In this document: positions 2,200 through 27,761 of the stretch, piece by piece
Layout: every line of letters starts with the position of its first letter
Position numbering within the stretch: the first letter of the stretch is position 1
DNA from: Amycolatopsis granulosa
Lineage (GTDB): Bacteria > Actinomycetota > Actinomycetes > Mycobacteriales > Pseudonocardiaceae
Direction: 5' to 3'
NCBI RefSeq assembly: GCF_011758745.1
Contig: NZ_JAANOV010000001.1
Span: 2,728,001 to 2,792,000, forward strand
Length of the DNA stretch: 64,000 nucleotides
Notes under the pieces: generated by a model
What the model saw: only the letters and a program-made list of their open reading frames with translations
The model's database searches: none
Told to the model about the DNA's origin: nothing
Program-made: the position numbers and the translations under genes

Positions 2200-2221
2200 C
2201 ACCACGAGGAGGAGTGCAGCC

Positions 2222-3442: not shown

Positions 3443-3453
3443 GCGGGACTCCA

Positions 3454-4941: not shown

Positions 4942-5053
4942 GGGACACCTCCGCAGTAGCGCACATCGCGAAACTACGGGCGTCCCGGCCCGCCGTCATC
5001 GCCCCGCGAGTACCCCTTGGGCACCGCGGGCCGTGACGGGAAGTACTGCCGGA

Positions 5054-5914: not shown

Positions 5915-6009
5915 GTTCCTTGGTTCCTTCCCGAATTCCCGTGTCTGGGTTCTGTTTCTCAAGCGGCACCGCTACCCGCACCGCCACGCAAGTCACTTCG
6001 GAACACGCA

Positions 6010-6753: not shown

Positions 6754-6774
6754 GGGTTGCTCCACTTCGTTGTG

Positions 6775-6788
6775 TATGAACGTTCATT
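6775..6788. promoter_or_regulatory. TetR-type operator copy 3
   Basis: TATGAACGTTCATT differs from the perfect palindrome at one base. It sits just upstream of the first SDR gene and downstream of the amidohydrolase gene end, so it should control the three-SDR transcript. Confidence 0.72.
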
Positions 6789-6833
6789 TTTATGGCGGCG
6801 GACCACGGGGTCAAGACGCGACACCCGGTGGGA

Positions 6834-7799: not shown

Positions 7800-7839
7800 G
7801 CATCACCTCTCCGGTTCGCGAAGAGGCCGGGGACCGGTC

Positions 7840-8457
7840 TCAGCGAACCTTGCTGATGGAACGGAGGACGAGATCGGCGTAGAAGGTCGCGAACGCGGCG
7901 TCGGACACCGGGCCGTCCGGGCTGAACCAGCCGGCCACCCGGAAGGACATGTCGAGCGCCGCCGTGGCGGCCATCCGCACCGGGTCGCCGTTGGGCACCT
8001 TGGGCAGTTCGAAGACACCGGCCGCCGCGCCGTCGCGGATGACGTCGGAGACCCTGGCCCGGATACCGAGCCGCAGCCGGCGCACTTCGTCACGGTGCTC
8101 CTCGTCGAGCGCGCGCCACTCGTCGCCCACCACGGCTTCCTTGCGGTAGCGCGTGTGGTGCAGCACGAACGCCTCGATCAACCCGTGCAGCCGCTCCGGC
8201 GGGGGCGCATCCGCCGGCACCGCGTCGAGCCGCCGGTCGAGCGTGTTGTGCCCGTCCATGATGATCGAGTACAGCAGCTCTTCCTTGGACCCGAAGTGGT
8301 TGTAGAGGGCGCCGGGCGTGAGCCCGCAGGCCTCCGTGATGTCCCGCACCGAGGTCGCGTGAAAACCCTTGTTGTAGAACAGGCGCGTGCCGGCTTCCTG
8401 CAGCCGGACCCGCGGGTGCTGCCCGTTCCTGCTCCGCGTCCTGACCGGCGTCCCCAT
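7840..8457 (-). CDS. TetR/AcrR family transcriptional repressor, predicted regulator of the left cluster
   Basis: DNA-binding repressor, 205 aa. The chosen start is the ATG at 8457 behind GGGAAG; a longer frame starting at 8544 would begin inside the operator and adds a low-complexity tail. The N-terminal TetR helix-turn-helix is clear: AGTRLFYNKGFHATSV, then ACGLTPGALYNHFGSKEELL. The C-terminal half is the variable ligand and dimer domain. A palindromic operator at 8532-8545, 75 bp upstream, implies autoregulation, and five related sites lie at neighbouring promoters. The inducer is probably a CoA ester or substrate of the pathway (inferred). Confidence 0.87.
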   Translation of the reverse strand: MGTPVRTRSRNGQHPRVRLQEAGTRLFYNKGFHATSVRDITEACGLTPGALYNHFGSKEELLYSIIMDGHNTLDRRLDAVPADAPPPERLHGLIEAFVLHHTRYRKEAVVGDEWRALDEEHRDEVRRLRLGIRARVSDVIRDGAAAGVFELPKVPNGDPVRMAATAALDMSFRVAGWFSPDGPVSDAAFATFYADLVLRSISKVR

Positions 8458-8531
8458 CGCTTCCCACCGACTTCCGTGCGACCGAGCGGTGCGCCCGGTG
8501 GTCGCGCCCCCAGGGCACGACCACCGGGATG

Positions 8532-8545
8532 TATGATCGTTCATA
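8532..8545. promoter_or_regulatory. TetR-type operator copy 4 (autoregulatory)
   Basis: TATGATCGTTCATA lies inside a longer near-perfect dyad (8528-8549, GATGTATGA...TCATACATC). It is upstream of the tetR gene and is the most extended copy of the motif, consistent with autorepression. Confidence 0.72.
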
Positions 8546-8623
8546 CATCGACCGCGCCGCCCACCTTACCGGAACGGGCGGACAGGCCGATCTGTGACCT
8601 GTCGCACGTCCCTGCCGGTACGC

Positions 8624-9841
8624 TCAGCACCACACCTCCGTACTGTCGTCGGTGTAGCCGAGCGAGCGGTAGACGGCGTCGACCAGGCTCTGCCCCCGGT
8701 CGTTGAGCAGCGTGCCCGGCCCCATGTTGTTCATGGTGTAGCCGAAGGACATGCGGTTGTCCGGCGAGGCGAAGCCCAGGCTGCCGCCGAAACCGGGGTG
8801 CCCGAAGGCGTCCGCGGACAGGATGATGCTGTCCCGCAGGCCGTAGGGCCGGTGCCGGTTGTCGATCGACCGGAAGTAGCCGGCAGAGAACCGGCTGCCG
8901 ATCAGCAGCGTCTCGTCGTGGCCCGCGGAGATCGTCGTCATCATCCGCGCGAGGGCGCGCCGGTCCACCAGCTCCACTCCGGCGAGCCCGCCACCGCAGG
9001 CCAGCGGTGCGTACATCCCCGCCAGCCCGCGGGCGTTGCTGATCCCGCCCGCGGCGCCGATCTCGGCCGCGTGCGCGTTGCGCGAGTCGAACCCGGTCGG
9101 CCCGGGCAGCATGTACCCGCCGGAGTTGGCGAAGATCTGGCCGGGGATGGACTCCGGTTTGGTCGCCGCCATAGTCATGAACAGCGACGGCTCGTCGCCC
9201 TCACGGGGCTCGGGGAAGATCATCGGTGCGAGCCGCGGCTCGACCTCCTCCGGGCACCCGATCCAGAAGTCCAGGCCGAGCGGACCCGCGACCTCGTCCC
9301 GGAAGAACTCGCCGAGCGACTTCCCGGACACCCGGTGGACGACCTCACCGACCAGCCAGCCGAAGGTGAGGGCGTGGTAGCCGTGCCTGGTGCCCGGCTC
9401 CCACAACGGCTTCTCCACCTCGAGCGCTGCGATCATCCGGTCCCAGTCGAAGAAGGCGCTGTCCGGCAACGGGGTGCTGATCACCGGCAGTCCACTTTGG
9501 TGACTCAGCAGCATCCGGACGGTGATGTCCTCCTTGCCCGACTGGCCGAACTCCGGCCAGTAGCGCGCGACCGGCGCGGCCAGGTCCAGCTGCCCGCGGG
9601 ACGCGAGCACGTGGGCGCACAGCGCGGTCGCACCCTTGGTGCAGGAGAAGATCACGCTCGCGGTGTCCTGCTCCCACGGGCGGCCGGTCTCCCGATCGGC
9701 GACGCCACCCCACAGGTCCACCACCGGTTCGCCGTCGATCATGACGCAGACCGACGCGCCCACCTCCCCGCGGTCGGCGAAGTTCCGCTCGAACTCCTCG
9801 CGGACGCGCGAGAACTCTTCCGCACAGCTACCACCGATCAT
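8624..9841 (-). CDS. Serine hydrolase, beta-lactamase/esterase (EstB-like) family
   Basis: Penicillin-binding-protein-fold esterase, 405 aa, without a signal peptide and so probably cytosolic. The start at 9841 follows AGGAAG; an extra 36 codons upstream are rejected. Catalytic SxxK is SCTK (Ser66-Lys69), and the YxN-like tyrosine lies in HGYHALTFGW near residue 155. The C-terminal GHPGFGGSLGFASP matches the HxGxGG-type third motif. Family members hydrolyse short-chain esters or lactones and rarely beta-lactams. Its start is 43 bp below the end of an exported hydrolase of the same superfamily, suggesting sequential extracellular and intracellular ester cleavage (inference). Confidence 0.86.
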   Translation of the reverse strand: MIGGSCAEEFSRVREEFERNFADRGEVGASVCVMIDGEPVVDLWGGVADRETGRPWEQDTASVIFSCTKGATALCAHVLASRGQLDLAAPVARYWPEFGQSGKEDITVRMLLSHQSGLPVISTPLPDSAFFDWDRMIAALEVEKPLWEPGTRHGYHALTFGWLVGEVVHRVSGKSLGEFFRDEVAGPLGLDFWIGCPEEVEPRLAPMIFPEPREGDEPSLFMTMAATKPESIPGQIFANSGGYMLPGPTGFDSRNAHAAEIGAAGGISNARGLAGMYAPLACGGGLAGVELVDRRALARMMTTISAGHDETLLIGSRFSAGYFRSIDNRHRPYGLRDSIILSADAFGHPGFGGSLGFASPDNRMSFGYTMNNMGPGTLLNDRGQSLVDAVYRSLGYTDDSTEVWC

Positions 9842-9884
9842 CGGACTTCCTTTCCTCGGACGCACTCCGTCGTGCGCACCGTGT

Positions 9885-11435
9885 TCATCCCCCAACCGAC
9901 TGCTGGAGGGATGCCAGCAGCGCGGGAAGCGCCGCCGGAAGCTGCTCACCCGTGATGCGGGCCGTCTGCTGCCAGCCGTCCAGCAGGCGCGGCAACAGAT
10001 CGGGCACCTGCTGCGCCAGTTGCGCGGTCCCCGCCGGAAGCGCGGTCAGCGCCGCGAACCCGGTGCGCGGAACGTCCATCAAGGACCGGATGGTGCCGGC
10101 GGCGGCCAGCTTCCCGCCGCACCCGAAGATCGTGCAGCCCTTCGGCGCGTTCGGACCGAGCTGCGCCACGGCGAGGTTGTCGGGCACGCTGACGAACAGG
10201 CTCGGGTCGACCGCGCCCGGCTTCGGCGCGACGTACGGCGGCGCCGCCGGCTGCCGGGGCGTGACGACGGACTGCATCAGCAGGCGGAAGAACTCGTACT
10301 CGACGCGGCCGGTCTGCCCCGGCGCGACGGCGGTGAGCGGATCGCCCACGTCGACCCGGCTGGGCGGCCAGTTGAGCGTCCCGCTGGAGCGGGTCACCAC
10401 CATGTCCAGGCTGGGGATCACGAAGATGTGCTGGCCGAAGAACCCGTACGAGAAGTACATGTCGGCCGGCGCGCTGGAGATCATCGGCGCCGGGTTGCGG
10501 GTGGCGGCGAAGGCGGACGGGGTGATCCAGTACGGGCCGGCGTTGAGCCAGGTCAGGTAACCGTAGCCGGGGTTGTTCGGGCTCGGCGTGCGCAGATCAC
10601 GCAGGTAGCTCTCGGAGATCAGCCGCTTGCCGTGGAAGGTTCCGCCGTCGGCCAGCAGCTGACCGATCCGCCCGAAGTCGTCACCGGGCAGGAACAGGTT
10701 CGACCAGCCGTCGGTGTTGCCGTCGCGGTCGCGCAGCCAGAACCAGTGGTCCCGGGCGATGCCGACCGGACCGAAGAGCTCGCGCTGCGCGAAGTCCTGG
10801 AGGTCCTCGCCGACCGCGCGCTGCACCACGTAGGCCACCACGGACGGCCCGGTCTGCGAGTAGCGGTAGAAGGTCCCGGGCTGGTGGTCGAACGGCAGGG
10901 ACAGGAACTCGCGGATGCGGTCGGGCATGGCGAGGTTCAGCTCGCGCGTCCAGTTCGCCCGGACGCCGCTGGTCTGGGTCAGCAGCTGGCGGACGGTGAC
11001 GGCGCGGTGGGCCGCGTCGCCGAGGCCCGGTGGCAGGTACTTCCCGATCGGATCGTCGACGGAGAGGCGGCCGAGGGTGACGGCCCGGCCGGCGAGCAGG
11101 GCGGTGATCGTCTTGGTCTGGCTCCAGTTGTTGCCCGGGATGTGACCGAGCAGCGGGTCGAAGATCCCTGTCCCGACGAGACAGTCGTGCCGGTAGACCT
11201 GCACCGTCTCCGACCCGTTCACCGAGAGGAGGTTGAGCGCGTGGCCGAGGGTGACGGGATCGAGACCGACCTGCTCGGGGCGTGCGGTCTGGTACCGGTC
11301 ACCGGCGTCCGCGCACCCGGTTCCGCCCGCGGCCGTGGCGCGCTCCGGTGCGACCGCCCCGAGGGTGGTTGCGACCAGCGCCGCGGCCAGCACGCCGGCG
11401 AGCGCGGCCCACCGGCGCGAGAGTGACAGCTTCAT
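9885..11435 (-). CDS. Secreted serine hydrolase, beta-lactamase family
   Basis: Exported PBP-fold hydrolase, 516 aa. The N-terminus (MKLSLSRRWAALAG followed by a hydrophobic run and ATA-A) is a Sec-type signal peptide. Catalytic SxxK is SQTK (Ser105-Lys108) and a tyrosine motif YSQTG occurs near residue 190. A cysteine-containing insert (GCTIFGCGG) and an alanine/leucine/glutamine-rich tail of about 90 residues follow the catalytic domain, which is unusual. The promoter region carries two operator copies (11504 and 11595), the strongest control point of the cluster. The likely role is first hydrolysis of an ester or lactone substrate outside the cell (inferred). Confidence 0.84.
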   Translation of the reverse strand: MKLSLSRRWAALAGVLAAALVATTLGAVAPERATAAGGTGCADAGDRYQTARPEQVGLDPVTLGHALNLLSVNGSETVQVYRHDCLVGTGIFDPLLGHIPGNNWSQTKTITALLAGRAVTLGRLSVDDPIGKYLPPGLGDAAHRAVTVRQLLTQTSGVRANWTRELNLAMPDRIREFLSLPFDHQPGTFYRYSQTGPSVVAYVVQRAVGEDLQDFAQRELFGPVGIARDHWFWLRDRDGNTDGWSNLFLPGDDFGRIGQLLADGGTFHGKRLISESYLRDLRTPSPNNPGYGYLTWLNAGPYWITPSAFAATRNPAPMISSAPADMYFSYGFFGQHIFVIPSLDMVVTRSSGTLNWPPSRVDVGDPLTAVAPGQTGRVEYEFFRLLMQSVVTPRQPAAPPYVAPKPGAVDPSLFVSVPDNLAVAQLGPNAPKGCTIFGCGGKLAAAGTIRSLMDVPRTGFAALTALPAGTAQLAQQVPDLLPRLLDGWQQTARITGEQLPAALPALLASLQQSVGG

Positions 11436-11679: not shown

Positions 11680-12792
11680 TCACCCAGCTGGGTGACGCAC
11701 GCCCCAGGCACGCAACACGGCCTCGGTGTCGGAACCAGGCTCTCGTGGTGCGGCCGGCAGATCGGGCGCGCTGCGGGAGAACCGCGGCGCCGGAGCGGCC
11801 TGGCGGACCCCGCCCAGCTCGACGATCGTGTCGCGACCGGCGAGCTGTGGTTCGTCGACGGCTTCCGCGAAGTCGAGCACCGGGGTGACGCACGCGTCGG
11901 TGCCGGCGAACCGGTCGGCCCACTCGTCCCGGGTCCGGGTCTCGAACGCCCGCTGGAAGGCTTGCCGCACATGCGGCCACCCGGAGCGGTCGAGCTGCTC
12001 CGGGAGATCGGCATCGCCCAGGCCGAGGCCGTCGACGAGCTGGGCGTAGAACTGCGGTTCGATCGCGCCGACCGCGACGTACCGGCCGTCGCGGCAGCGG
12101 TAGGTGTCGTAGAAGGGGGCGCCGCTGTCGACGAGGTTCGACGCCGGCTCGTCCCGCCACTGGCCGACGCCGCGCAGCGCCCACACGCCCTGGGCCAGGG
12201 ACGTCACGCCGTCCACGATCGCGGCGTCCACCACCTGCCCGAGTCCCGAGCGCGCGCGTTCCCACAGCGCCGACAGCACACCCAGGACGAGGTACAGCGA
12301 TCCGCCGCCGAAGTCCCCGACCAGGTTCAGCGGCGGCGTGGGGCGCGCACCGGCCGTGCCGATGGCGTGCAACACGCCCGTGACGGCGAGGTAGTTGATG
12401 TCGTGCCCTGCCTGGGTGGCGCGCGGGCCGTCCTGGCCCCAGCCGGTCATGCGCCCGTAGACCAGGCCCGGGTTGCGGTCCAGGCACTCCTTCGGGCCGA
12501 TGCCCAGCCGCTCGGTGACCCCGGGCCGGAACCCCTCGATCAGCACGTCGGCCTTCTCGACCAGCGCGAGCACCAGGTCGCGCCCCTCCGGCTGCTTCAG
12601 ATCGGCCGAGATCGAGCGCCGGCCGCGCATCAGCCAGTCAGCGGCGTCCTCGGGCACCACCCGCAGGCCGCCCCTGGGCCGCTCGACGCGCACCACCTCG
12701 GCGCCCAGATCGGCCAGGAGCATGGCCGCATGAGGCCCCGGGCCGATCCCGCCCAGCTCCAGAACGCGCAACCCGTACAACGGTCCCGCCAC
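11680..12792 (-). CDS. CaiB/BaiF family CoA protein, alpha-methylacyl-CoA racemase-like
   Basis: Family III CoA-transferase fold, 370 aa, most like alpha-methylacyl-CoA racemases (MCR/AMACR). The GTG start follows GGAGGA. Typical marks are [20 protein letters not shown] at the N-terminus, [30 protein letters not shown], and [11 protein letters not shown], the loop carrying the conserved catalytic His-Asp region of racemases. A racemase would invert 2-methyl-branched acyl-CoA so that beta-oxidation can continue, consistent with an SCP2-type thiolase nearby. It lies 41 bp downstream of the KAS II-like gene and is probably read on that transcript. CoA-transferase activity is the alternative. Confidence 0.82.
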
Positions 12793-12833
12793 GGCGGTCC
12801 TCCTCCTCGGTACGGCCGGCGGGAGCGCGCACC

Positions 12834-14111
12834 TCAGGCGAGCCGCAGCAGCAGCGACGTCGTGTCGCCACCGCCGGAAAGGCCCACCGTCATCGCCGTC
12901 CGCCGGCCACTGTCGGCAATCCGCTCGGGACTACCAGTCAGAGCGCGCGCGGGCAAGCGGGGATAGGGGTTCACCAGGTTCGCCGTGGGGGCCACCCGGT
13001 TCTCGGTCAGCATCACCAGACTCGCGAGCACCTTGAGCAGACCGGCCGCCCCCGGCAGGTGCCCGTAGCACGCTTCCTGCGAGGTCAGCGTGAGCGGCGC
13101 GTCGTCGCCGAGGTTCGCACGCAGGGTGGCCAGCGTCTCGCACAGGAAGTCCTCGAGCTGGCGGTTGCCCTCCGCGAAGTCGCAGAAGAAGGCCAGCTCG
13201 CCGAGGCTCACCCCACCGGCCGCGAGCAGCCGCTGGATGTCGGTCGCGCACCCGGTCGCATCGCCGAGGCCCATCGGGTTGCCGCCACCGTTGCGGGACG
13301 AGAACCCGATGAACTCGATGCCGGTGTCCACCCCGCCGCCGGGGTGCCGCGTGGAGCTCAGCACGGCGGCGGCCGCCCCTTCGGCCGGCGCGTTGCCGGT
13401 CTGCACCGCGTCGTGCGGCCGGATGTCCGCCGGATCGTCCGAAATGGACGAAGCGCGGTGGCCGGACCGGCCGGCGTACCCCGTCGCGGACAGGTACAGC
13501 GGCTCCAGGATCGTGTCGACCCCGACGACGACCGCGTGCTCGACCTCGCCGCGCGCGACCATGCTCGCGGCGAGCTCGAACCCCCGCAACGAGGTGCTGC
13601 ACCCGCCGGTCACAGTCAGGGTGGGGATGTCGAGGCCGAGGTTGGTGCACAACCCGGACGCGATGCTGCCCGGCGCCACCTTGGACCAGTAGTCGAAGGC
13701 GACACCCGCCGGACCGGCGTCGGCGAACCGGTCCAGCAGCGCGGCCGTCTCCTGCAGGGCGAACTGGAACGACGTCACGATCAGCACCGCGTCCCCGCGG
13801 CTGATCTCGGCGGCCGTCAGCTCCGCGTGGTCCAGGGCACCGGCCACCGCGGTGTGCGCCAGCCTGCTCGCCCGCGGCAGCCTGGACAGCAGGCGATCGG
13901 GCAGGTCCAGGGTCTCCGCACCGGTCCCCGGCACCTGACCGGCGACCCGGATGGGCGTGCCCGGCAACTCGAACGGCGTGATGGCGCAGGTTCCGGCCAT
14001 TACCGCGTCGGCGAACTCCTTGTAGTCGTGGCAGGGGCGGTCCGCGCCGGGCAACGCGAAACCGGCGCCCCGGACCGTGACGGGCTTCCAGGCGGCTTGG
14101 GCAGGCAACAT
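12834..14111 (-). CDS. Atypical beta-ketoacyl synthase (KAS II-like) lacking the first active-site histidine
   Basis: Condensing-enzyme fold, 425 aa. The start at 14111 follows GGAG; the open frame continues far upstream but only as antisense of the next gene. The nucleophile motif is present (GGCSTSL, Cys171) and so is a GH-AAG motif ([11 protein letters not shown], His350). The usual HGTxTxxND segment is replaced by [12 protein letters not shown] near residue 309, so the first histidine is missing, and the lysine before the second histidine is not evident. Claisen condensation may be altered, or the protein may act as a partner subunit, acyltransferase or chain-length factor. It is last but one in a coupled minus-strand operon. 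Confidence 0.8.
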
Positions 14112-14140
14112 CGGGACTCCAGTTCGTGAGTGCTCGCGGG

Positions 14141-14992
14141 TCAGGGCAGGCCACCGTCGATGGAGTACGACTGGCCGGTGATCGATCGGGCGTGGTCGCT
14201 GAGCAGGAAGGCCGTCATCTCGGCCACCTCCTCCGCGTCGATGAGGCGACGGAGGGCGGTGCTCTTCACCGTGCTGCGCCAGTAGCGTTCCCAGGTCAGG
14301 TCCGGCGGGCCGGCGTGCCGGCGAACGCTGTCCATGAAGTCCCCGCCGAACTGGCTTTCGTCGCGCACCATCTCGGTGTCGGTGAAGCCCGGGCACACGG
14401 CGTTGACCCGCACCTGCGCGGGCCCCACCTCCAGGGCCAGCGACCGGACCAGGCCGTTGATCCCCCACTTCGAGGCCGAGTACGAGGTGTTCGCGGGAAC
14501 TCCGCGTTTGCCGGCCGCGCTCGAGATGAGGACGATCGAACCGCGCCGGCGGTGCATCATCCCCGGCACCACGGCCCGGCAGAACCGGAACGACCCGGCG
14601 AGGTTGGTGTCGATCGTGCGCAGCCACGACTCCTCGTCCTGGTCGCACAGGTACTTCTGCCCCTTCGCGGTCCCCGCCGCGTTGACCGCGAAGGTGACCG
14701 GCCCGTACCGCTCCTCCACCTCGGCGACGGCGGACTGCACCGAATCCAGGTCACGCACGTCACCGGGGCAGGCGAACGCCTCGCCACCGGCCGCGACGAT
14801 CTTCTTCTCCGCCGTGCGCAGGCGCTCCAGGTTCCGGCCGAGCAACCCGACGGCCGCGCCGCCGGCCGCCAGCACCTCGGCGACCGCGAGGCCGATACCG
14901 CTGCCACCACCGGTGACGAACGCCACCTGCCCGTCGAAGCGCGCGCCGGCGCCGGGTTCTTCACGCGATGCGGCCGGGAAAGCCACCGCCAT
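14141..14992 (-). CDS. SDR family oxidoreductase
   Basis: Short-chain dehydrogenase, 283 aa. The start follows GGAGGT and lies inside the 3' end of the next upstream SDR gene (32-bp overlap), so the pair is translationally linked. Marks are TGGGSGIG near residue 27, NAAG, LISSAAG with catalytic Ser, YSASK (YxxxK) and SIDGG at the end. A roughly 20-residue N-terminal extension precedes the Rossmann domain. An insert with DLTWERYWRS before the C-terminus suggests a large substrate. In context it would reduce or oxidise a 3-oxo/3-hydroxyacyl product of the condensing enzymes (inferred). Confidence 0.85.
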   Translation of the reverse strand: MAVAFPAASREEPGAGARFDGQVAFVTGGGSGIGLAVAEVLAAGGAAVGLLGRNLERLRTAEKKIVAAGGEAFACPGDVRDLDSVQSAVAEVEERYGPVTFAVNAAGTAKGQKYLCDQDEESWLRTIDTNLAGSFRFCRAVVPGMMHRRRGSIVLISSAAGKRGVPANTSYSASKWGINGLVRSLALEVGPAQVRVNAVCPGFTDTEMVRDESQFGGDFMDSVRRHAGPPDLTWERYWRSTVKSTALRRLIDAEEVAEMTAFLLSDHARSITGQSYSIDGGLP

Positions 14993-15776
14993 CCACCTCC
15001 AGGACGTTGCCGGTCAGGTACTCGTTGTCGATCGCGTGCACGATGGTCCGCGCGACCTCGGACTCCGTCGCGAACCGCCGCAACGGGATGTGCTCGCGCA
15101 GCCGCGCCATGTGGGCGGCGTGCGCGGGCTTGCGGGCGCACTTGTCCCGCAGCGCGGCACCGTCGATCACGCCCGGCGCCACGCACACCACCCGGATCCC
15201 GTGGTCGGCCAGTTCCAGGGCCAGGCTCCGGGTCAGGGACACGACCCCGGCCTTCGCGGCCGCGTACGCGGGCTGCCCCCAGGAGCCGCGCCAGGTCGAG
15301 CTGGCGATCGTGACGATGACGCCACCCCGCTGCTGCCTCGCGAACAGCAACGCCGCCGCCCGCGCCACCCGGAACGTGCCGGTCAGGTTGAGGTCGAGCG
15401 TGTCCTGCCAGTCCCGTTCCGAGTGGGCCAGCCACTGCCCGCCGTCGTCCCCGGGCGGGACGAGCAGCCTGCGGGACAGGTTGCGCCCGGCCGTGTTGAC
15501 GCACGCGGTGACCGGCTCGCCGGCCTCGTCGAGCGCGGCGAAGAGCGCGTCCACGCTCCGCTCGCTCCGCACATCGGCGACCCGGGTCTCCAGGGGCAGC
15601 TTCTTGCGTTCGGCGATCTCCGCGACCTCGGCCAGGCGCTCGCCGCCCCGGGCCGCCACGAGCACGCGACGTCCCGCCTCGGCGAGCAGGAGCGCGGTCG
15701 CGAGACCGATCCCGCTGCTGCCGCCGACCACCAGCACGCTGCCGCTGGTGCCCGGCGGCACCGGAACGCCCGTCAT
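14961..15776 (-). CDS. SDR family oxidoreductase
   Basis: Short-chain dehydrogenase, 271 aa. The cofactor loop is VGGSSGIG near residue 18 (V in place of the usual T), with NTAG, the TIASST serine region, YAAAK (YxxxK) and a VDGGG end. Its ATG overlaps the TGA of the upstream KAS III gene by one base (TGATG), and its 3' end overlaps the next SDR gene, so three genes are chained. ARG at the end of beta-2 (VAARGG) suggests NADP preference. It probably works on the product of the adjacent KAS III-like enzymes. Confidence 0.85.
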   Translation of the reverse strand: MTGVPVPPGTSGSVLVVGGSSGIGLATALLLAEAGRRVLVAARGGERLAEVAEIAERKKLPLETRVADVRSERSVDALFAALDEAGEPVTACVNTAGRNLSRRLLVPPGDDGGQWLAHSERDWQDTLDLNLTGTFRVARAAALLFARQQRGGVIVTIASSTWRGSWGQPAYAAAKAGVVSLTRSLALELADHGIRVVCVAPGVIDGAALRDKCARKPAHAAHMARLREHIPLRRFATESEVARTIVHAIDNEYLTGNVLEVDGGGFPGRIA

Positions 15777-16756
15777 CAGTAGATCCGGTAGAGCATGGCG
15801 CCGGAGTACCAGCCGGCGCCGATCGCGGGGCTGAGCACCAGATCACCCGGGCGGAAGCGGCCCGCCGCGATCTCCTCCGCCAGCACGATCGGGATGGACG
15901 CGCTGGAGGTGTTCCCCCTGGTCTCGAAGTTCACGATGAACTTCTCCTCCGGGACCTCCAGGGCGGCGCGGACCCGCCGGTGCACGACATCGGTTCCCGG
16001 GTGCGGAACCACCCAGTCGATCTCGTCCATGGTCACGCCGGTGCGCCGGAGGATCTCCGCGCAGGACTCGACGATGCTCGTGACCGCGTGGTCCGGCAGG
16101 CTGGACTGGCTGCGGATCCAGCCGCGGGGCGCCGCCACCCTGATCACGTCGGCACGCGAACCGTCGCTGTGCAGCACCACGTCGATCAGGCCGCCGCGGT
16201 CCGACTTGCTCAGCACCACCGCCCCCGCGGCATCGGAGGTCACCAGCTCGCCCTTGCTGCCCGGGCGGACCCGTCGGCTGAACTGCTCGCTGCACACGAC
16301 CAGCGCGTGCCGCGCCTCCGGAACGCAATGCAGGTAGGCGGCCGCGGTCTGCACGCCGTGCAGGAAACCGACGCAGGCACCCGAGATGTCGAACGCCAGC
16401 GTCCGCGGACTGCCGATCAGTGCCGCCACCTCCGGCCCGTACTCCGGGGTGAACGGCGGTGTGGTCCAGTTCGACAGGACCAGCAGATCCAGCTCGGTCG
16501 GTTCCAGGCCCGCGTCCTTCACCGCGGCCTTGCCCGCCTCGGCCGCCATGAACTGGACCGTCTCGGTCTCGCTGCTGCGATGGCGGGAACGCACGGACAC
16601 CGTGCCCAGCACCGAGGCGTCGATCGCGTTGCCGGGCACCGCTGCCACGTCCGAGTTGACGATCTGTTCTTCCGGGTAGTACAGACCGAAGCCCCGGAGC
16701 ACCAGGCCGGCGGCCTCCCACCGGGGGCCGGCCGCACCGCCCTGTTCGTACGACAT
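15776..16756 (-). CDS. KAS III-type condensing enzyme (FabH-like) 1
   Basis: 3-oxoacyl-ACP synthase III-family protein, 326 aa. The start at 16756 follows GAAAGG. A complete Cys-His-Asn triad is visible: Cys128 in DISGACVGFLHG, His252 in WVVPHPGTDV and Asn282 in ETRGNTSSAS. It should load an acyl group from a CoA thioester and condense it with a second thioester. It lacks obvious FabH ACP-binding landmarks and no ACP gene is nearby, so a CoA-linked partner is likely. The adjacent gene is a second, divergent KAS III, a pairing seen in some ketone, quinolone and beta-lactone type pathways (family knowledge, not proof here). Confidence 0.86.
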   Translation of the reverse strand: MSYEQGGAAGPRWEAAGLVLRGFGLYYPEEQIVNSDVAAVPGNAIDASVLGTVSVRSRHRSSETETVQFMAAEAGKAAVKDAGLEPTELDLLVLSNWTTPPFTPEYGPEVAALIGSPRTLAFDISGACVGFLHGVQTAAAYLHCVPEARHALVVCSEQFSRRVRPGSKGELVTSDAAGAVVLSKSDRGGLIDVVLHSDGSRADVIRVAAPRGWIRSQSSLPDHAVTSIVESCAEILRRTGVTMDEIDWVVPHPGTDVVHRRVRAALEVPEEKFIVNFETRGNTSSASIPIVLAEEIAAGRFRPGDLVLSPAIGAGWYSGAMLYRIY

Positions 16757-16790
16757 CGCTGACAGCACCTTTCCTTCGTGGCTTGTCCGA

Positions 16791-17804
16791 TCAGGCACGC
16801 GACGGTTCCCCGTAGCGGAAGACCATGGCTCCCCAGCTGAACCCGCGGCCCACACTCATCGCGAGCACCCGCTGTCCTCTTCGGATGGTCCCGTCGTGCA
16901 CGTGCTCGGAGAGGCAGCTGGGGACGCTCACGCTGGAGGTGTTGCCGCGGCGGTCGATGTTGACGAGCACCCGTTCCGGCGGCAGTCCGAGGATCTCGCC
17001 GACCTCGTCGATGATGTGGATGTTGCCCTGGTGCGGGATGATCCAGTCGATGTCGTCGAGCGTCAGCGAGCACTGGGCGAGCACGTCACGCGCGGCCTCC
17101 GACAGGAACCGGGACGCTACACCGTTGACGACCTTCCCCTTCATGATCATCTTGTCCTGGTCGTCGATGTCGAAGGCGTCGTAGAACTCCGCGTCCGATC
17201 GGAGCACGGCGCCCTCCAGCCCGCCCGGCGCGTCCGAGGCGCGCCACACACCGGCAGCCGCCCCGCCGCCGAACAACGCCGCGTTGCGGAACCCGAAGTT
17301 GAGGATGGGTCGCGGGTTCTCCGCCGCCACGACCAGCACCGTCCGGACCGCCGGGTTCGCGAGCAGGCCCTGCGCCACGACACTGCCGTGCAGGAACCCG
17401 GCGCACGCGACACCGGTGATGTCGAACGCGAACGCGTGGTCGGCCCCGATGCGTTTCTGCAGCGGCAGAGCCAGGTCCATGTACCGGTTCCCGCTGGTCG
17501 TCGGGTTGGTCCTCGGCCGCGCGGTCGCGGTCGTGCCGATGACGACGTCCACGTCCGCGGCGTCGACACCCGCGTCCTTGAGCGCCATCGCCACCGCGCG
17601 TTCCGCCATGTCGGCGTGGTGCTCGCCGGGGGGCGGCCAGTGCCGCGCGCCGACCCCGGTGTGCTCGCGGATCCACGCGTCGTCGATGCCCAGGCCGGGG
17701 TGCTCGGACTCGAAGTACTCGTTCGTGACCGGGGCGCCGGGGAAGTCGTGTCCCACCCCGGCCAGTTCGATCGGACGGCCGCCGGGCGGTTCGTGTGTGG
17801 TCAT
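16791..17804 (-). CDS. KAS III-type condensing enzyme (FabH-like) 2
   Basis: Second KAS III-fold protein, 337 aa. Its ATG overlaps the stop of the CoA-transferase gene (ATGA), which fixes the start. The triad is complete: Cys134 in ITGVACAGFLHG, His258 in WIIPHQGNIH and Asn288 in DRRGNTSSVS. Inserts such as GNRYMDLALPLQKRIG and RNAALFGGGAAAG differ from the first KAS III, so the two are not recent duplicates. Tandem KAS III genes may form a heterodimer or act on different acyl chains. It is placed directly after a CoA-transferase that could supply its CoA ester. Confidence 0.86.
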   Translation of the reverse strand: MTTHEPPGGRPIELAGVGHDFPGAPVTNEYFESEHPGLGIDDAWIREHTGVGARHWPPPGEHHADMAERAVAMALKDAGVDAADVDVVIGTTATARPRTNPTTSGNRYMDLALPLQKRIGADHAFAFDITGVACAGFLHGSVVAQGLLANPAVRTVLVVAAENPRPILNFGFRNAALFGGGAAAGVWRASDAPGGLEGAVLRSDAEFYDAFDIDDQDKMIMKGKVVNGVASRFLSEAARDVLAQCSLTLDDIDWIIPHQGNIHIIDEVGEILGLPPERVLVNIDRRGNTSSVSVPSCLSEHVHDGTIRRGQRVLAMSVGRGFSWGAMVFRYGEPSRA

Positions 17805-19453
17805 CGGTAGAAGCCCTCCGGGTCGAGAGTGCGGAGTGTGGACAGTTCCTCGTCCGTGATCGGCTTTTCCCACTCGGGAGAGCTGTCCGGAACGGGCCAC
17901 GACGTGCGGTCGCGCAGCGTGGCAACCGGGTCCGCGCCGGTGTCGTCGTCCGGCGCCATCCACGTGGCGAGGTGGAACGGTGCCGCGGCGGACTCCCGCG
18001 CGAGGCGCCCGTACTGGGTCGCCACGGTCAGCACGTTCTGGCCGGGGCAGGTCACGAAATGCACCCGCGGCACCAGTTTGCGCGGAGACGCCGGTGCGAC
18101 CACGAGCGTCTCCAGGTGGGTCGCGAAGTCGTTCGCCCCGCCCGACCCCACCAGGTACCGGCCGTCCGCGGTCCGGCTGCTGTTGATGCGGCCCGCCGGA
18201 TCGATCTCACCGGCCGAGAGCACCGCCAGCGCCCGGCCGTACCCACCCGCGGTGAGTGCACCGAGGACGTCGAGGCTGTCGCCGTGCGCGCGGGACCGGG
18301 CCACGTGGGACTGGGCGAACAGGAACGCGTCACCGGCCGCCGGGCTCATGTCGATCAGTCCCAGCTCGGCGTGCACCTGCAGGGCGTGCCCGTCCCTGGC
18401 CAGCTGCGCCGCCGCCAGCCAGGACGCGATGTGCGCGGTACCGATGCCGGCCAGGAGCGTGCGGTAGCCGGCGGACCGCACGCGGTCCGCGATCGCCCGG
18501 GACGCCACCACGATGTGCCGTTCCCGCCAGGACGGCGCTACCCGCGCGACCGGCCGGCGGATCGGGTCCAGCCGCCGCAGCGCGGCCAGCCGGTCGGGGC
18601 CGAGCTCGGTGAGGTAGTCCAGGTGCCCGGCCGGGGCGAGCACCCAGCGGTCGAACCAGCTGTCCGGCCCGCCCGGCCGCGCGAAGGTGCCGGCGAGTTC
18701 GGCGAGGAAAGCGTAGTCGTCCCGGTAACCGGCGAAACCGCACTCCGGCCACGCGGGAAGCCCCTGCGGGTGCGCACCGAACTCGCAGCGCGCGATACCG
18801 AGCACCCGGTCGGCCGGGATGGACACCCCGCCGCGGGGCGGGGTGTCCACCACTCGCTCGACGGTGGCCAGGACACCGCGGCGCGCCGCCATCGCACCCC
18901 ACCAGCCCTCGCCGCGCGGACCGTTGAGGTAGAGGTTTCCCCGCCGGTCCGCGCACGTGGCGTGCAGCAACGTGACGTCCGGGCGCAGGGCCGGAACGGT
19001 GAGACAGTCCCGGGCATCCGGCATCTCGGCGGGAAGCCGCGTGCCCCGGCTCTCCAGATCGGAACCGGCGAGCGACGTCGTGACCGCGACCGGGTTCCCG
19101 CACGCACCGGCGATCAACCGCTGGAGGAGCGCGAGCAGGCTCCACTCCTCCACGGTGAACGGCTTTCCCTCGGGCAGGTGCGCGTACAGCGGGTTCGGCC
19201 GCGGCGACGGATAGGTGTCCCCGGCGAAACAGGTGATCGCGTGCCGCACGACACCGGCGATCGCCAGCGCGTGCATGTTGGCGTGGAAGGCGTTGCTGCT
19301 GACGTCGAAGACCGCCCGGCCGCGGAACACCCGCGCCACGGCGAGCAGCAGAGCGTTGGGCCGCGACATGGTGGACGCCACGTGCACGTGCATTCCCGGC
19401 ACCAGGTGGCGCCGGCACAGCGCGTCCGGGTCCTCGATGATCTGCGGTGTCAT
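17801..19453 (-). CDS. Family I CoA-transferase, alpha and beta halves fused
   Basis: CoA-transferase of the glutaconate/3-oxoacid type, 550 aa. In most family members (GctAB, IpdAB) the two halves are separate polypeptides of 250-300 residues; here they are one chain. The start is the ATG at 19453, overlapping the TGA of the KAS II gene. The first half carries RPNALLLAVARVF and the LHATCADRRGNLYL motif; the second half has AIADRVRSAGYRTLLAGIGTAHIASWLAA and AELGLID, the likely catalytic-glutamate loop. It should move CoA between carboxylic acids or act as a CoA-dependent hydrolase on a ring fragment, as IpdAB does. It may prime the flanking condensing enzymes. Confidence 0.83.
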   Translation of the reverse strand: MTPQIIEDPDALCRRHLVPGMHVHVASTMSRPNALLLAVARVFRGRAVFDVSSNAFHANMHALAIAGVVRHAITCFAGDTYPSPRPNPLYAHLPEGKPFTVEEWSLLALLQRLIAGACGNPVAVTTSLAGSDLESRGTRLPAEMPDARDCLTVPALRPDVTLLHATCADRRGNLYLNGPRGEGWWGAMAARRGVLATVERVVDTPPRGGVSIPADRVLGIARCEFGAHPQGLPAWPECGFAGYRDDYAFLAELAGTFARPGGPDSWFDRWVLAPAGHLDYLTELGPDRLAALRRLDPIRRPVARVAPSWRERHIVVASRAIADRVRSAGYRTLLAGIGTAHIASWLAAAQLARDGHALQVHAELGLIDMSPAAGDAFLFAQSHVARSRAHGDSLDVLGALTAGGYGRALAVLSAGEIDPAGRINSSRTADGRYLVGSGGANDFATHLETLVVAPASPRKLVPRVHFVTCPGQNVLTVATQYGRLARESAAAPFHLATWMAPDDDTGADPVATLRDRTSWPVPDSSPEWEKPITDEELSTLRTLDPEGFYR

Positions 19454-20745
19454 GCCACCTTCTCCAGCGCCACCGCCGAACTCTGGCTGCCGATGGCGAA
19501 CGACAACGACAACGCCCGGCGCACGAGGGCCGGTCGCGCCCCCTCCTGCACGTGGTCGTGGTCGCACTCCGGATCGACCTCGACGCAGTTGATCGTCGGG
19601 ACCAGGCACTGGTTGCGCAGCACCAGGGCGACGGCCGCGCAGTTCAGCAGCCCGGAGGCCCCCAGCAGGTGGCCGAAAACCGGCTTGATCGACCCGAGCG
19701 GCGGCCACCCGGCGCGGTCGTCGCCGTACACCAGCCGCAGGGCCCGGCTCTCCGCCACGTCGTTGTACCGGGTGGCGGTGCCGTGACCGCAGATGTAGTC
19801 CAGCTCCTCGGCGGGATGACCGGCGGCGGCCGTCGCCTTGCCGATGAGCTCGGCCGTGAACCGCCCGCTCAGGTCCATCCGCGTCGCGTGGCCGGCCTCG
19901 CTCAGGCTGACGGCGGACCCGACCGCGGCGTAGGGCTCCCGCTGCCGGCGCTCGGCGTGCGCCCGGGTCTCCAGGACCATGGCCACCGCGCCCTCGCCGA
20001 ACGCGAACCCGTCCCGGCGGCGGTCGTAGGGCTTGATGGTCTGCCGGGGATCGCCCTGGGCGCGGGACAGCACACCGGCGCTCGGCGAGGAGTACAGCCG
20101 GAGCATCTCCGGCACGAACGGCGTCTCGTGGCCGACGAGGATCATCACGTCCGCCTGCCCGGCGCGCAGCGACTGGATGGCGAAGGCGATCGACTGATGA
20201 CCGGCGACGCACGCGTTGCTGAGGGTCGTGACGGTGCCCTGCGCGCCGAGCCGGATCGCGCTGAGGGTCGCCGGGCTCCCCGGGAGCGAGGCGAAGATCG
20301 CCTGGTCGACGTCGATCGGCGGGTTCTCCGGATCGAGCGCGCGACCGCGGGCGGTCTGCGACCACCATTCGATCGGCCCGCGGGAACTCGATCCGATCAC
20401 GCCCACGCGCTCGGGTTGGGTGACGGAGTCCCCGATGGTCAGATCCGCGTCGCGCCTGGCCTGCTCGACCGCGGAGAGGACCATCAGGATTTCCCGGCTG
20501 TACCGCTTCGTGAACGCGTCCGGCAGGTCCGGCACGTGCTTGGTGTGGTCGAAGTCGCGGACCCTGGCACCGACGCGGCTCACGCTCCCGGCGGGCGCCC
20601 CACCGGTGATCGTCTCCGGGAGGACGTCGATCTGGGAGACCCCGTCGCGCAGCGTCCGCCACACGTCGTCCCGGCTTTCCGCGCCGGGCAGCACGAATCC
20701 CAGTCCGGTGATGACAACTTGCTGGTCGTCGTTCGTCTGCTGCAT
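19450..20745 (-). CDS. Beta-ketoacyl synthase, KAS II (FabF-like)
   Basis: Condensing enzyme of 431 aa with an intact active site: Cys179 in LSNACVAGH, His321 in ICGHGTATRYND, Lys354 in GSIKPVFGH and His359. The start follows GGAG. Unlike the KS at 12834, it should be catalytically competent. It is first or second gene of the coupled operon (next upstream is the enoyl-CoA hydratase homologue, 63 bp away) and overlaps the CoA-transferase start. A free-standing KAS II without ACP or malonyl transferase genes nearby must borrow primary-metabolism ACP or use CoA esters (inference). Confidence 0.87.
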   Translation of the reverse strand: MQQTNDDQQVVITGLGFVLPGAESRDDVWRTLRDGVSQIDVLPETITGGAPAGSVSRVGARVRDFDHTKHVPDLPDAFTKRYSREILMVLSAVEQARRDADLTIGDSVTQPERVGVIGSSSRGPIEWWSQTARGRALDPENPPIDVDQAIFASLPGSPATLSAIRLGAQGTVTTLSNACVAGHQSIAFAIQSLRAGQADVMILVGHETPFVPEMLRLYSSPSAGVLSRAQGDPRQTIKPYDRRRDGFAFGEGAVAMVLETRAHAERRQREPYAAVGSAVSLSEAGHATRMDLSGRFTAELIGKATAAAGHPAEELDYICGHGTATRYNDVAESRALRLVYGDDRAGWPPLGSIKPVFGHLLGASGLLNCAAVALVLRNQCLVPTINCVEVDPECDHDHVQEGARPALVRRALSLSFAIGSQSSAVALEKVA

Positions 20746-20808
20746 GTCACATTTCTCCGATCACGGCGTCCGGCGCTGAACCGGAGAGCCGCGAGATGTG
20801 GGGACCGT

Positions 20809-21603
20809 TCAATGACCGGTGAAGTGCGGTTTCCTGCCTTGCAGTAGCGCGCGCAGGCCTTCGCCGCTGTCCGCGACCTCGGCGTGGCTGCGCCGGTGGA
20901 ACCGGTCCTGCATCCGCAGAGCGGACAGCACCGGCTGCTCGACCGAGCGCTCGCGCAGTTCCTTGTACAGAGCGATGGCCTTCGTCGGGCCGTGGGCGAG
21001 GTCGTGGGCGAGCCGCAGTGCCTCGTCCACGACCTGCCCGTCCTCGGGAACCAGCCGGTCCAGCAGACCGATCCGGTGTGCTTCGTCCGCGCCGACGAGG
21101 CGTCCCGAGAGGAAGATCTCGGTCGCCCGGGCCGGGCCCACCACGCGCCGCAGCATCGCGCCGATGCCGACGTGCCCCACCCGGATCAGACCGCACCCGA
21201 TCCGGCTCCCCGGGCCTCCGATGCGCAGGTCGGCGGCGCACGCGATCTCCGTGCCCGGTCCGATGGCCACGCCGGTCACCGCGGCGAGCACCGGTTTCGG
21301 TGCGAGCACGATTTCCTCGCAGAGCCGCACGTAGAACGCGTCCGCGGTGTCGGCGGACGCGGGCGCCGCCGCGACGTCACCGTCGGCGTACTTCCGCAAC
21401 GAGTCCAGATCGTCGCCGGAACAGAAAAAGCCGCCGCTGCCCCGCAGCACCATCGCGCGGACCCGTTGATCGGCAGCACCGTCCGCCACCGCGGCGAGCA
21501 ATGCCTTTCCCGTTTCGAAATCGAGCCCGTTACCACTTTCCGGCCGGTTCAGCGTGACGGTCAGCACCCCGTCCTGGCAGTCCAGCTGAACTGGTGCCGG
21601 CAT
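20809..21603 (-). CDS. Enoyl-CoA hydratase/isomerase family protein with one catalytic Glu replaced
   Basis: Crotonase-fold protein, 264 aa. The oxyanion-hole segment FFCSGDDLDSL (residues 59-69) and the IGPGTEIACAADLRI helix are clear, so CoA thioester binding is expected. In hydratases two glutamates act together: the first is kept (Glu119 in GTEI), but the second, normally in a PE dipeptide about 20 residues later, is replaced (GCGLIRVGH near residue 139). Hydration is therefore doubtful; an isomerase, hydrolase, decarboxylase or ring-opening activity is possible. It is probably the first gene of the condensing-enzyme operon; the 119-bp gap to the regulator upstream likely holds the promoter. 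Confidence 0.83.
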   Translation of the reverse strand: MPAPVQLDCQDGVLTVTLNRPESGNGLDFETGKALLAAVADGAADQRVRAMVLRGSGGFFCSGDDLDSLRKYADGDVAAAPASADTADAFYVRLCEEIVLAPKPVLAAVTGVAIGPGTEIACAADLRIGGPGSRIGCGLIRVGHVGIGAMLRRVVGPARATEIFLSGRLVGADEAHRIGLLDRLVPEDGQVVDEALRLAHDLAHGPTKAIALYKELRERSVEQPVLSALRMQDRFHRRSHAEVADSGEGLRALLQGRKPHFTGH

Positions 21604-21722
21604 TTGTGATCCCTTCTCCCGGCAGGTGGCGGCGACAATTCAAGGAAACCGTCTCACCGGCATCGGCGGCAGACCTTCCGAGTACCAATTCCCGGAGCAC
21701 GGAAGGACCGCCGGTACCACCG

Positions 21723-22418
21723 TCAGGATGCGAGGGATGACGGACGGGCCGCTGGGAAGTCAGTCGACCGCGTCCGCGGGCGGGGAACCCGGTCGACGCG
21801 TGCTTCCACCGACCGGAAGAGCTCCTTCCTGCTGCCGAAGCCCAGCTTCTGCAGGACCTTGCTCACGTAGTTCTTGACCGTCTGCTGGGCGAGGCACAGT
21901 TCGTCGGCGATCTCCTCGTTCGACCGCCGCTTCAGCAGCAGGGAGAGCACCTCCTGCTCCCGGTTGGTCAGGTCGGTGCCGGGCAGCCGGGTGGACTCCG
22001 CGCTCCGCGGCGCGGTCTCGCCGAGCACCCACGCGCGGCGGCCCGAGCAGGTCGCTTCCACCACTTCCAGCACCTCGGCGCAGCTGGCGAACTTGTGGAG
22101 GAAGCTGTCCGCTCCGGCGTTGAGCGCCGCGGCGATGGCCGCCGGCGCGGCATCGCCGCTGATCACGATGGCCGGCACGTCCGGCCGCCGGTCCTTGACG
22201 AACCGGCACACCCGCAGCCCGGTTCCGCCGCCGGGCAGCGTGAGGTCGGTGATGACCAGGCCGGGGAGCTCCTCGGCGCAGTATCGCAGTGCCTCCTGCT
22301 CCGTGGCCGCCTCCACGACCTCGCCGACCGCGTCGAGTTGCTCGATCAGACTGCGCAGGCCGAACCTGAGCAGGGGCTGCTGCAGCACGACCAGAACCCT
22401 GAGTCGAGGTGCCATCAT
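21723..22418 (-). CDS. Orphan LuxR/NarL-type response regulator with altered receiver pocket
   Basis: Two-domain regulator. The receiver domain comes first: the usual acidic DD pair is replaced (LVVLQQPLLRFGL), while the phosphoacceptor Asp in VITDLTLPGG and the Lys in SFLHKFAS remain. The C-terminal GerE/LuxR helix-turn-helix reads LTNREQEVLSLLLKRRSNEEIADEL...TVKNYVSKVLQKLG. Loss of the metal-binding acidic pair suggests phosphorylation-independent or weakly phosphorylated control. No histidine kinase gene is adjacent. The start at 22418 (ATGATG behind GGGGGA) is preferred over an ATG 12 bases upstream. It probably controls the condensing-enzyme operon downstream on the same strand. Confidence 0.84.
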   Translation of the reverse strand: MMAPRLRVLVVLQQPLLRFGLRSLIEQLDAVGEVVEAATEQEALRYCAEELPGLVITDLTLPGGGTGLRVCRFVKDRRPDVPAIVISGDAAPAAIAAALNAGADSFLHKFASCAEVLEVVEATCSGRRAWVLGETAPRSAESTRLPGTDLTNREQEVLSLLLKRRSNEEIADELCLAQQTVKNYVSKVLQKLGFGSRKELFRSVEARVDRVPRPRTRSTDFPAARPSSLAS

Positions 22419-22535
22419 TCGGTCCCCCATCGTCGATTTGCGGATACCCTAGGTACCGAAATACCGCGCGCCCGCAATATCGACAGCAAGTCAGAAATCC
22501 GCGTGATCATGCGGAGAAGCATCGAACCGGGGACG

Positions 22536-22657: not shown

Positions 22658-23635
22658 TCATTCGCGCAAAGTCGCGGACGGGCTCTCCCCGAACCTTTGG
22701 CGATAAATAACCGAAAACCGACCCGGATGCGGGAATCCCCAACGCGACGCGATCTCACCCACCGTCGCGTGCTCCGGCCGGTGCGCCCGGAGCTCATCCC
22801 GCACCCGCTGCAGCCGGACGTCGTTGAGGTACTCGCGCGGGGTCACGCCCAGCTGCTCCCGGAACCCGCGCTGGAGCGTGCGCACCCCCACCCCGGTGAC
22901 CCTCGCCAGGCTGCCGGTGGTGTGCTCCCACTCCGGGTGGTTCTGCATGATGTCGACCGCGAGCCGCACCGGGCGCGAGGGCGCCGGCCGGGTGTTGCGG
23001 TCGAGGAGCTGGTGCTGGAACGGGTGCGGCTGAGCCAGCAGCAGCCCCGTCAGCAACCCGGACTCGAACTCCGCCGCGGCGAGCGGGTGCTCGATCATGC
23101 TGTCCGGCTGGTCCAGCAGGGTGACCAGGGTCCGGAAGCCGGCCGCCCAGGACCGGCCCGGTCCGGCATCGAGGGGCATGGTGGGCGCGAACCGCAGCGG
23201 CTGGTGCAGCGTACTGCCCAGAAGTTTTCCCAGATGCGCTTCCAATGCCACCCGCTCGATCCGGTACACGAGGTGCGCGCAATCCGCGGACCAGTTCATG
23301 ACGAGCGAACGGTCCGGTGGCAGAACCGCCGCTGCCCCGGGATGCGTGCGGACCTGCTCGCCGGCGTATTCGATCCGGCATTCCCCGGCGAGGGGGAGGA
23401 GCACGGCGAAATACGTGCGTTCTTCCGGTTCGATGAGCACGTCCCCGCCGTAGGCCAGGTAGGAGACGCTGGTGCCGTTGCCGACCCGCTTGGTGTGCAG
23501 CCGGGCGTCGATACCGTTCGCGAGGTCGAGCGGCTCGAGGTTGTGCGCGCAGAAGGCGCGCGCGGTCATGTCACGGGTGTAGTCGACGTCTCTCGACTGG
23601 AACAACTCGAACCGGTGAAGTGGTAGCAGCGCCAT
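22658..23635 (-). CDS. AraC/XylS family transcriptional regulator
   Basis: Transcription activator, 325 aa. The N-terminal part (about 1-210) resembles the AraC-binding-like domain found in actinobacterial catabolic regulators (PF14525 type), with YFAVLLPLAGECRIEYAG and an AAVLPPDRSLVMNW strand-turn. The C-terminal double helix-turn-helix is typical: LARVTGVGVRTLQRGFREQL, TPREYLNDVRLQRVRDEL and IASRWGFPHPGRFSVIYRQRFG. No strong ribosome site precedes the ATG. It lies upstream of the orphan response regulator on the same strand, so the two may form a regulatory relay for region B. Confidence 0.86.
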   Translation of the reverse strand: MALLPLHRFELFQSRDVDYTRDMTARAFCAHNLEPLDLANGIDARLHTKRVGNGTSVSYLAYGGDVLIEPEERTYFAVLLPLAGECRIEYAGEQVRTHPGAAAVLPPDRSLVMNWSADCAHLVYRIERVALEAHLGKLLGSTLHQPLRFAPTMPLDAGPGRSWAAGFRTLVTLLDQPDSMIEHPLAAAEFESGLLTGLLLAQPHPFQHQLLDRNTRPAPSRPVRLAVDIMQNHPEWEHTTGSLARVTGVGVRTLQRGFREQLGVTPREYLNDVRLQRVRDELRAHRPEHATVGEIASRWGFPHPGRFSVIYRQRFGESPSATLRE

Positions 23636-26262: not shown

Positions 26263-26266
26263 ACAC

Positions 26267-27205: not shown

Positions 27206-27302
27206 TCCTTTCCGGAATAGCGCGGACGCGACTGCGGATCGCCTACCAGCGCGGCCGTTCCTGCGGTGTTCTTAGGTCATGACAGCGAACACGAACACCG
27301 GG

Positions 27303-27641: not shown

Positions 27642-27644
27642 TGA

Positions 27645-27659
27645 CCGAGGGTACCTCGG
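27645..27659. promoter_or_regulatory. Inverted repeat at the GntR gene start
   Basis: CCGAGG-GTA-CCTCGG has perfect 6-bp arms and a 3-bp spacer, three bases before the GTG start of the GntR gene. It is a candidate autoregulatory operator. Confidence 0.5.
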
Positions 27660-27717
27660 AACAAACATCACCCTAAAGCACCACATGTACGACCTTGACG
27701 CACCTCAGCACCATGTA

Positions 27718-27731
27718 GTGCACTAGTGCAC
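27718..27731. promoter_or_regulatory. Palindromic operator candidate upstream of the transfer operon
   Basis: GTGCACTAGTGCAC is a perfect 14-bp palindrome 30 bp before the first gene of the long plus-strand operon and within the divergent gntR/operon promoter region. It is the expected place for a KorSA-type repressor to block the spread and transfer genes. Confidence 0.6.
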
Positions 27732-27761
27732 ATTAAGGCATTGACTCGGAAGGGAGACCCG

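Follow-up and report, generated by a model that had tools for sequence, protein, structure and literature searches.

To our knowledge, carrier-free condensation on CoA esters is known from very few antibiotics. In the parts of the literature cited here, non-iterative type II polyketide synthases (PKSs) are described as using several type II and type III ketosynthases (KSs; PMC9582728). The nonactin (macrotetrolide) cluster of Streptomyces griseus is reported there with five KSs, four KRs and no ACP (PMC10817512), and its pathway as running through intermediates bound to CoA and including NonS, a homologue of crotonases (PMC4979870). Pamamycin is likewise linked to succinyl-, malonyl-, methylmalonyl- and ethylmalonyl-CoA esters and to a NonS homologue (PMC10731712, PMC4979870), and the KS homologues NonJ, NonK and CerJ are said to form C-O bonds (PMC10006239). 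An earlier note on the DNA studied here had held that its mix of condensing enzymes matches no type II PKS layout, a view that finds no support, given that non-iterative type II PKSs with several type II and III KSs have been described and, for nonactin, without an ACP (PMC9582728, PMC4979870, PMC10817512).

Here we analyse a 64,000-nucleotide stretch of the Amycolatopsis granulosa genome, called the window below, in which eight packed minus-strand genes, A to H, run from position 21603 down to 12834 (genome position 2.741-2.750 Mb). We refer to them as the cassette:

A, 20809..21603, minus strand: crotonase-fold enzyme (PF00378, ECH_1, and an alignment of 7 orthologues)
B, 19450..20745, minus strand: KAS II-type condensing enzyme (Pfam ketoacyl-synt N and C), with Cys179, His321, Lys354 and His359 complete
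C, 17801..19453, minus strand: fused (alpha+beta) family I CoA-transferase (Pfam CoA_trans), with Glu363
D, 16791..17804, minus strand: KAS III (Pfam ACP_syn_III N and C), Cys-His-Asn intact, His at the FabH Arg249 equivalent
E, 15776..16756, minus strand: KAS III (Pfam ACP_syn_III N and C), Cys-His-Asn intact, Val at the FabH Arg249 equivalent
F, 14961..15776, minus strand: SDR, putative ketoreductase (Pfam adh_short)
G, 14141..14992, minus strand: SDR, putative ketoreductase (Pfam adh_short)
H, 12834..14111, minus strand: KS-fold protein, putative acyltransferase (Pfam ketoacyl-synt N, 6e-17, and C, 1e-5)

Adjacent genes overlap by 4 bases (B/C and C/D), 1 base (E/F) and 32 bases (F/G), or are separated by 63 (A-B), 34 (D-E) and 29 bases (G-H). 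Frame-wise GC over 12800-21800 backs every frame, including that of C, whose reading frame is open far upstream of the gene. No cassette protein matched NCBIfam at cut-off (for A, F and G, among the best 25 matches; for C, none at 1e-10). The eight coupled genes of these types that the earlier note had read from the sequence are thus confirmed by coordinates, junctions, frame-wise GC and Pfam. Its pair of KAS II-like enzymes holds in part: B is a complete condensing enzyme, whereas H, having lost the His of the HGT motif and the Lys, is no normal one. At other loci H usually has as its partner one more KS, X, which is absent from the window.

At this locus several type II KSs (B and H, of KAS II type) stand together with type III KSs (D and E, of KAS III type), and there is no ACP. 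It differs from a classical type II PKS (KSalpha/CLF/ACP) in this absence and in that the gene after B is C rather than a CLF; we place it in the NaPDoS2 class 'noniterative type II KS' by architecture. With the nonactin cluster, as far as the cited passages describe it, it shares several KSs and the lack of an ACP, and its SDRs (putative KRs) and crotonase resemble the several KRs and the crotonase homologue there (PMC10817512, PMC4979870). The SDRs and the crotonase of the cassette are Pfam assignments, and the comparison with NonS is one of type only. CoA thioesters and KS-like enzymes forming C-O bonds, described for nonactin (PMC4979870, PMC10006239), are what we propose for the cassette as well. 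However, these descriptions, in the parts cited, do not mention a CoA-transferase (PMC10817512, PMC4979870, PMC10006239), whereas the cassette has one beside a KS at 26/26 loci. H and X lack the HGT His and the Lys, a trait in which they may differ from NonJ/NonK, and the likeness to nonactin is one of architecture. That to pamamycin would lie in the use of CoA esters, as proposed here, and in a crotonase comparable to its NonS homologue. When nonactin and pamamycin clusters were sought with B and X profiles in 323 genomes of genus g64, which we take to be Streptomyces, none of the matches viewed was recognized as nonactin; the scans returned the cassette, loci resembling classical type II PKSs, and regions in which X accompanies large type I PKS genes. 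Among the papers listed by searches of an open-access library for a characterized cluster with a KS, a CoA-transferase and no ACP, we recognized none as the cassette.

The constant core is the pair formed by B and C, which are neighbours at 26/26 loci found through either gene; at the 13 g64 loci found with B alone, C adjoins B every time (13/13), split over two ORFs in L118. Cys179, His321 of the HGT motif, Lys354 and His359 are all kept in B, and the same Cys, HGT His, Lys and GH His are present at 26/26 loci (24 of 25 by pattern together with the window, the 25th by alignment). The structure model of C (pLDDT 88) has a family I CoA-transferase fold over its length, and Glu363, invariant in 22/22 rows, aligns with the catalytic Glu of glutaconate CoA-transferase, a residue that we take to be Glu54beta (chain position 52 by count). 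C therefore has both fold and catalytic Glu in common with glutaconate CoA-transferase and SCOT, from which it differs in being a fused alpha-beta protein tied to a KS gene; its identity to the 50 matching structures listed is 14-18%. Because Glu363 is also kept in the relatives without a KS that we aligned (17/17 rows in all), it marks the CoA-transferase family rather than the cassette. Three loci (L057, L059 and L122) carry B-C without D-H, so the 'four KS' set is not the minimal unit. It is this fixed KS/CoA-transferase pair, together with the active-site states, that looks new.

The KAS III enzymes D and E of the window keep Cys-His-Asn. They depart from the norm at the position of FabH Arg249, presumably the ACP-docking residue, which is Arg in two controls (the FAS FabH of the same genome and one more KAS III). 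Alignments that cover all but a few loci have His or Asn there in D, with Arg lost in 17/17 rows, and a residue other than Arg in 19 of 21 rows of E; where E does show Arg, in two rows, the catalytic Asn is replaced by Gln. In A, the Glu of the first motif, GTEIA, is kept and the second motif has no Glu (7/7 rows), with positions that we take to be the canonical ones of crotonases. Since this second Glu is missing, A is unlikely to be an ordinary hydratase.

In H, Cys171 and His351 are kept and the HGT His and the Lys are lost in 11/11 rows, so that the Cys-His-His with Lys of a decarboxylating KAS I/II is found in none of the 11. With columns set against B, (F/Y)A(E/D)G replaces HGT, and QEA stands where B has its Lys motif, the Lys having become Glu. 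X follows the same pattern, with Cys and last His kept and HGT His and Lys lost, in 11/11 rows from nine loci. A simple pattern search marked 'HGT' in several X and in a single H, and the Cys of two X escaped it. In the aligned sample, which included the X of L054, L118, L120, L121, L153 and L154 and the H of L153, the active-site column is free of HGT and the Cys is in place; for the X of L119 and L123, the altered motif is evident in the sequences despite the flag. The structure model of H (pLDDT 77) matches KAS II and KS/CLF structures, so the KS fold is kept. By the KS mechanism, an enzyme that has lost the HGT His would be expected to retain acyl transfer but not decarboxylative condensation. 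With Cys and last His kept but HGT His and Lys lost, H and X are probably acyltransferases, judging by sequence.

X also occurs in other settings. X (at least 435 bits) is present without the cassette B in 22 of the 323 g64 genomes, and at L155-L170 (also g64; for example L160:3363-11023) an X-type KS lies beside a large protein of 2046-2347 aa in 16/16 regions viewed. One such large protein was scanned and is a type I PKS (KS-AT-DH-ER-KR-ACP). The pair of X and large protein is found on named Streptomyces plasmids too, and two X from such regions, when aligned, likewise miss the HGT His. L154:1263-15481 (G906) is a hybrid locus that adjoins the L124 cassette genes; one X-type KS there is fused to the tandem-SDR protein, and a second X stands beside a 2411-aa protein.

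A carrier protein was sought in the window's genome by Pfam and by motif. PF00550 (PP-binding) exceeds its cut-off at three places in the 5.62-Mb genome, one of which is acpP beside fabH at ~4.79 Mb, and the nearest lies ~1.7 Mb from the operon; two partial matches below cut-off lie ~0.32 Mb (17.3 bits) and ~1.06 Mb (13 bits) away. When small ORFs were scanned for the motif under a codon-GC filter, which the genome's own acpP passed as positive control, none in window 1-26000 got through; across the full window the filter admitted a single 79-codon fragment (38127-38363, minus strand), to which PF00550 gives no support. By both measures the cluster is ACP-less, as is found in non-iterative type II PKSs of this kind, and the earlier note was right to describe the operon so. 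Its remark that no adenylation gene is visible is true of the operon itself, though an AMP-binding CoA ligase is encoded outside the window, ~2.6-4.2 kb beyond its left edge.

The cassette is patchily distributed among actinobacteria. C-type proteins at E <= 1e-60 occur at 30 places in 28 of 390 family genomes; at the 10 places with at least 45% identity, window included, B is the next gene (10/10), and of the 20 at 37-42% identity seven were viewed, none with a KS of these kinds alongside. Across a class sample of 394 genomes, C at E <= 1e-30 is found in two, its own included; an H profile built partly from those two genomes gave 776.8 and 733 bits in them and 115 at the next place. The B profile reaches at least 589 bits in 13 of the 323 g64 genomes (the next match has 287), and the cassette or its core is thus present in about 4% of that genus. 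The 26 loci, all found through B or C, comprise 10 of the family (window included), 13 of g64, G240, Allosalinactinospora lopnorensis (L018) and a linear Streptomyces plasmid (L019), the last being the sole cassette relative among the matches listed in plasmid scans with C, H, B and E. The order B-C-D-E-F-G-X-H is collinear at seven loci of g64 (L116-L121 and L123). In a table of 25 loci, where L022, a 98% relative, takes the place of the window, at least 20 have D, at least 14 H and at least 15 X, counts that are minima because the regions were cut at about 20 kb. The distance matrices of B, C and D agree over 18 loci (Mantel r 0.967, 0.956 and 0.942, with 0/2000 permutations as high), which points to a shared history, although common species descent alone could give the same. 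The neighbourhood check suggested at the outset thus finds a co-conserved set, with B-C together at all 26 loci and the cassette recurring in other genera.

On its left the cassette adjoins a catabolic-type block, and on its right two regulators:

I, 11680..12792, minus strand: CaiB-type (family III) CoA-transferase, going with the flanking block
21723..22430, minus strand: response regulator (receiver and LuxR HTH), with homologues of 38-98% identity beside many cassettes
22658..23635, minus strand: AraC-family regulator, beside the cassette also in G012, G017 and G004
2219..11435, no strand given: flanking catabolic-type block, left of the cassette
within the block, plus strand, start estimated: thiolase
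3454-4941, 5054-5962 and 6010-6765: three SDR proteins of the block
6834-7799: amidohydrolase of the block
7840-8544: TetR of the block

The block also holds two beta-lactamase-family hydrolases, and beyond the thiolase come a substrate-binding protein, ABC transporter parts and, past the window edge, the CoA ligase. Among 61 relatives, the block adjoins the cassette in all five cassette genomes, from two genera, and the amidohydrolase is found in nine, five of five with the cassette and four without. In two genus-mates, G010 and G001, the block survives at 90-97% identity, with I at one end and the transporter and ligase genes at the other (the 3454 SDR protein of G010 has no gene call), but of the cassette only scraps are left upstream of I: in G001, 31 codons from G and 37 from H, and in G010, 26 from H. 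An ancestor thus carried the cassette, which was lost at least once, and the block outlived it; that the remnants differ between the two suggests separate or continued deletion. We considered I as a cassette member and rejected it, as it stays with the block in both of these genus-mates that lost the cassette. I also adjoins the cassette in G012, G017 and G032, and a 55% relative occurs in the L153 part of the L115 cluster.

Several further observations concern these surroundings. The 3454-4941 gene encodes a 495-aa protein whose N-terminal half is SDR-like by eye, without recognition by Pfam, and its relatives occur at several cassettes, often directly after H or X. Acyl-CoA carboxylase genes adjoin B-C at L057 and lie ~7 kb away in L019, ABC transporter homologues are present at 5 of 13 g64 loci (one Pfam-confirmed), and CoA ligases recur at L018, L115 and L124. 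The linear plasmid L019 carries, with its cassette relative, ScbA/ScbR-type genes, an AfsA-like protein, an acyl-CoA carboxylase and anthranilate synthase-like genes. Elsewhere in the window, 24796-40406 holds HTH/GntR-type genes (by eye) and two large genes with no Pfam match at 1e-8, and ends at a tRNA-Tyr gene (40324-40406); it is possibly an integrated mobile element.

We consider it fairly probable that the cassette encodes a specialized-metabolite pathway, namely a non-iterative type II PKS-like system that works on CoA esters and has no carrier protein. B, D and E, with their intact active sites, would each carry out decarboxylative condensation on CoA thioesters; F, G and associated SDRs would reduce the beta-keto groups; and A may act on an enoyl- or hydroxyacyl-CoA. 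H, usually paired with X elsewhere, would transfer an acyl group onto a nucleophile to give an ester, amide or lactone rather than form a C-C bond, as NonJ/NonK do in nonactin. C, whose fold and catalytic Glu are observed, may pass CoA from acyl-CoAs to free carboxylates and back; acids could then be loaded, or CoA recovered, with neither ACP nor thioesterase. The order of reactions and the class of product are what we infer. In favour of this reading we count the missing ACP, the complete active site of B, the altered sites of H, X, D and most E, the Glu of C, the B-C pairing, the acyl-CoA carboxylase and ABC transporter genes at some loci, the accessory distribution and the systems described for nonactin; the catabolic-type block beside the cassette and the loci with B-C alone count against it. 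The initial suggestion of a condensed product from a CoA-based pathway with no dedicated ACP is to that extent supported.

Biosynthesis might instead depend on an ACP, with the KSs borrowing that of fatty-acid synthesis (acpP) and C supplying or removing CoA only at the start or end. KAS II and KAS III families normally use ACP, the genome has its housekeeping acpP, B could still use it, and two of the 21 E-type rows keep Arg at the 249 position; yet the window has no dedicated ACP, and D and most E are without the Arg249 equivalent that the FAS FabH of the same genome retains, which leaves this reading unlikely in our view. Less probable still is that C is an IpdAB-like ring-opening C-C hydrolase and not a CoA-transferase. 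The fused C is distantly similar to a family that includes IpdAB and AibAB, but IpdAB of RHA1, in the part of the report cited, has Gly57beta in place of the catalytic Glu (PMC5380842). C keeps that Glu in every row of its alignment, and we rejected this candidate as very improbable.

In the catabolic alternative, the operon would serve degradation in one regulon with its neighbours (thiolase, SDRs, amidohydrolase, esterases, CoA ligase and an ABC uptake system), and its condensing enzymes would run in reverse or act as hydrolases. This reading draws on the company that the cassette keeps: the block stands beside it in every cassette genome among the 61 relatives, across both genera, and members of the CoA-transferase family of C are also found in catabolic-looking clusters that have no KS. 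We judge it quite unlikely all the same. The genus-mates that keep the block with only scraps of the cassette argue against it, G015 and G036 possess the amidohydrolase but not the CoA-transferase of the cassette, and other versions of the cassette lie with ABC transporter genes or on the linear plasmid with ScbA/ScbR-type genes. B, moreover, keeps its decarboxylation residues. These residues, the acyl-CoA carboxylase genes near B-C at L057 and L019, and the block without cassette in G010 and G001 also speak against the suggestion of the earlier note that condensing enzymes are reversed within a catabolic regulon.

A broader proposal may be put forward tentatively, as a possibility in which we have limited confidence: the cassette could represent a distinct class of carrier-free polyketide assembly, defined by an obligate B-C couple and a KS-derived acyltransferase pair, X-H (QEAxxGH, no HGT His), whose role is to close the product by forming an ester or amide. 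Certain lineages would have, next to the cassette, a catabolic counterpart of it (esterases, CoA ligase, SDRs and thiolase). Relatives that have lost the biosynthetic genes still carry this counterpart and could use it to consume the product. If the CoA-based reading of the cassette holds, CoA-only condensation would be commoner than the named compounds suggest, with the whole cassette or its core in 13 of 323 genomes of one sampled genus, and the B-C pair and QEAxxGH KSs would offer a searchable signature for new molecules as well as simple soluble enzymes for CoA-only polyketide engineering.
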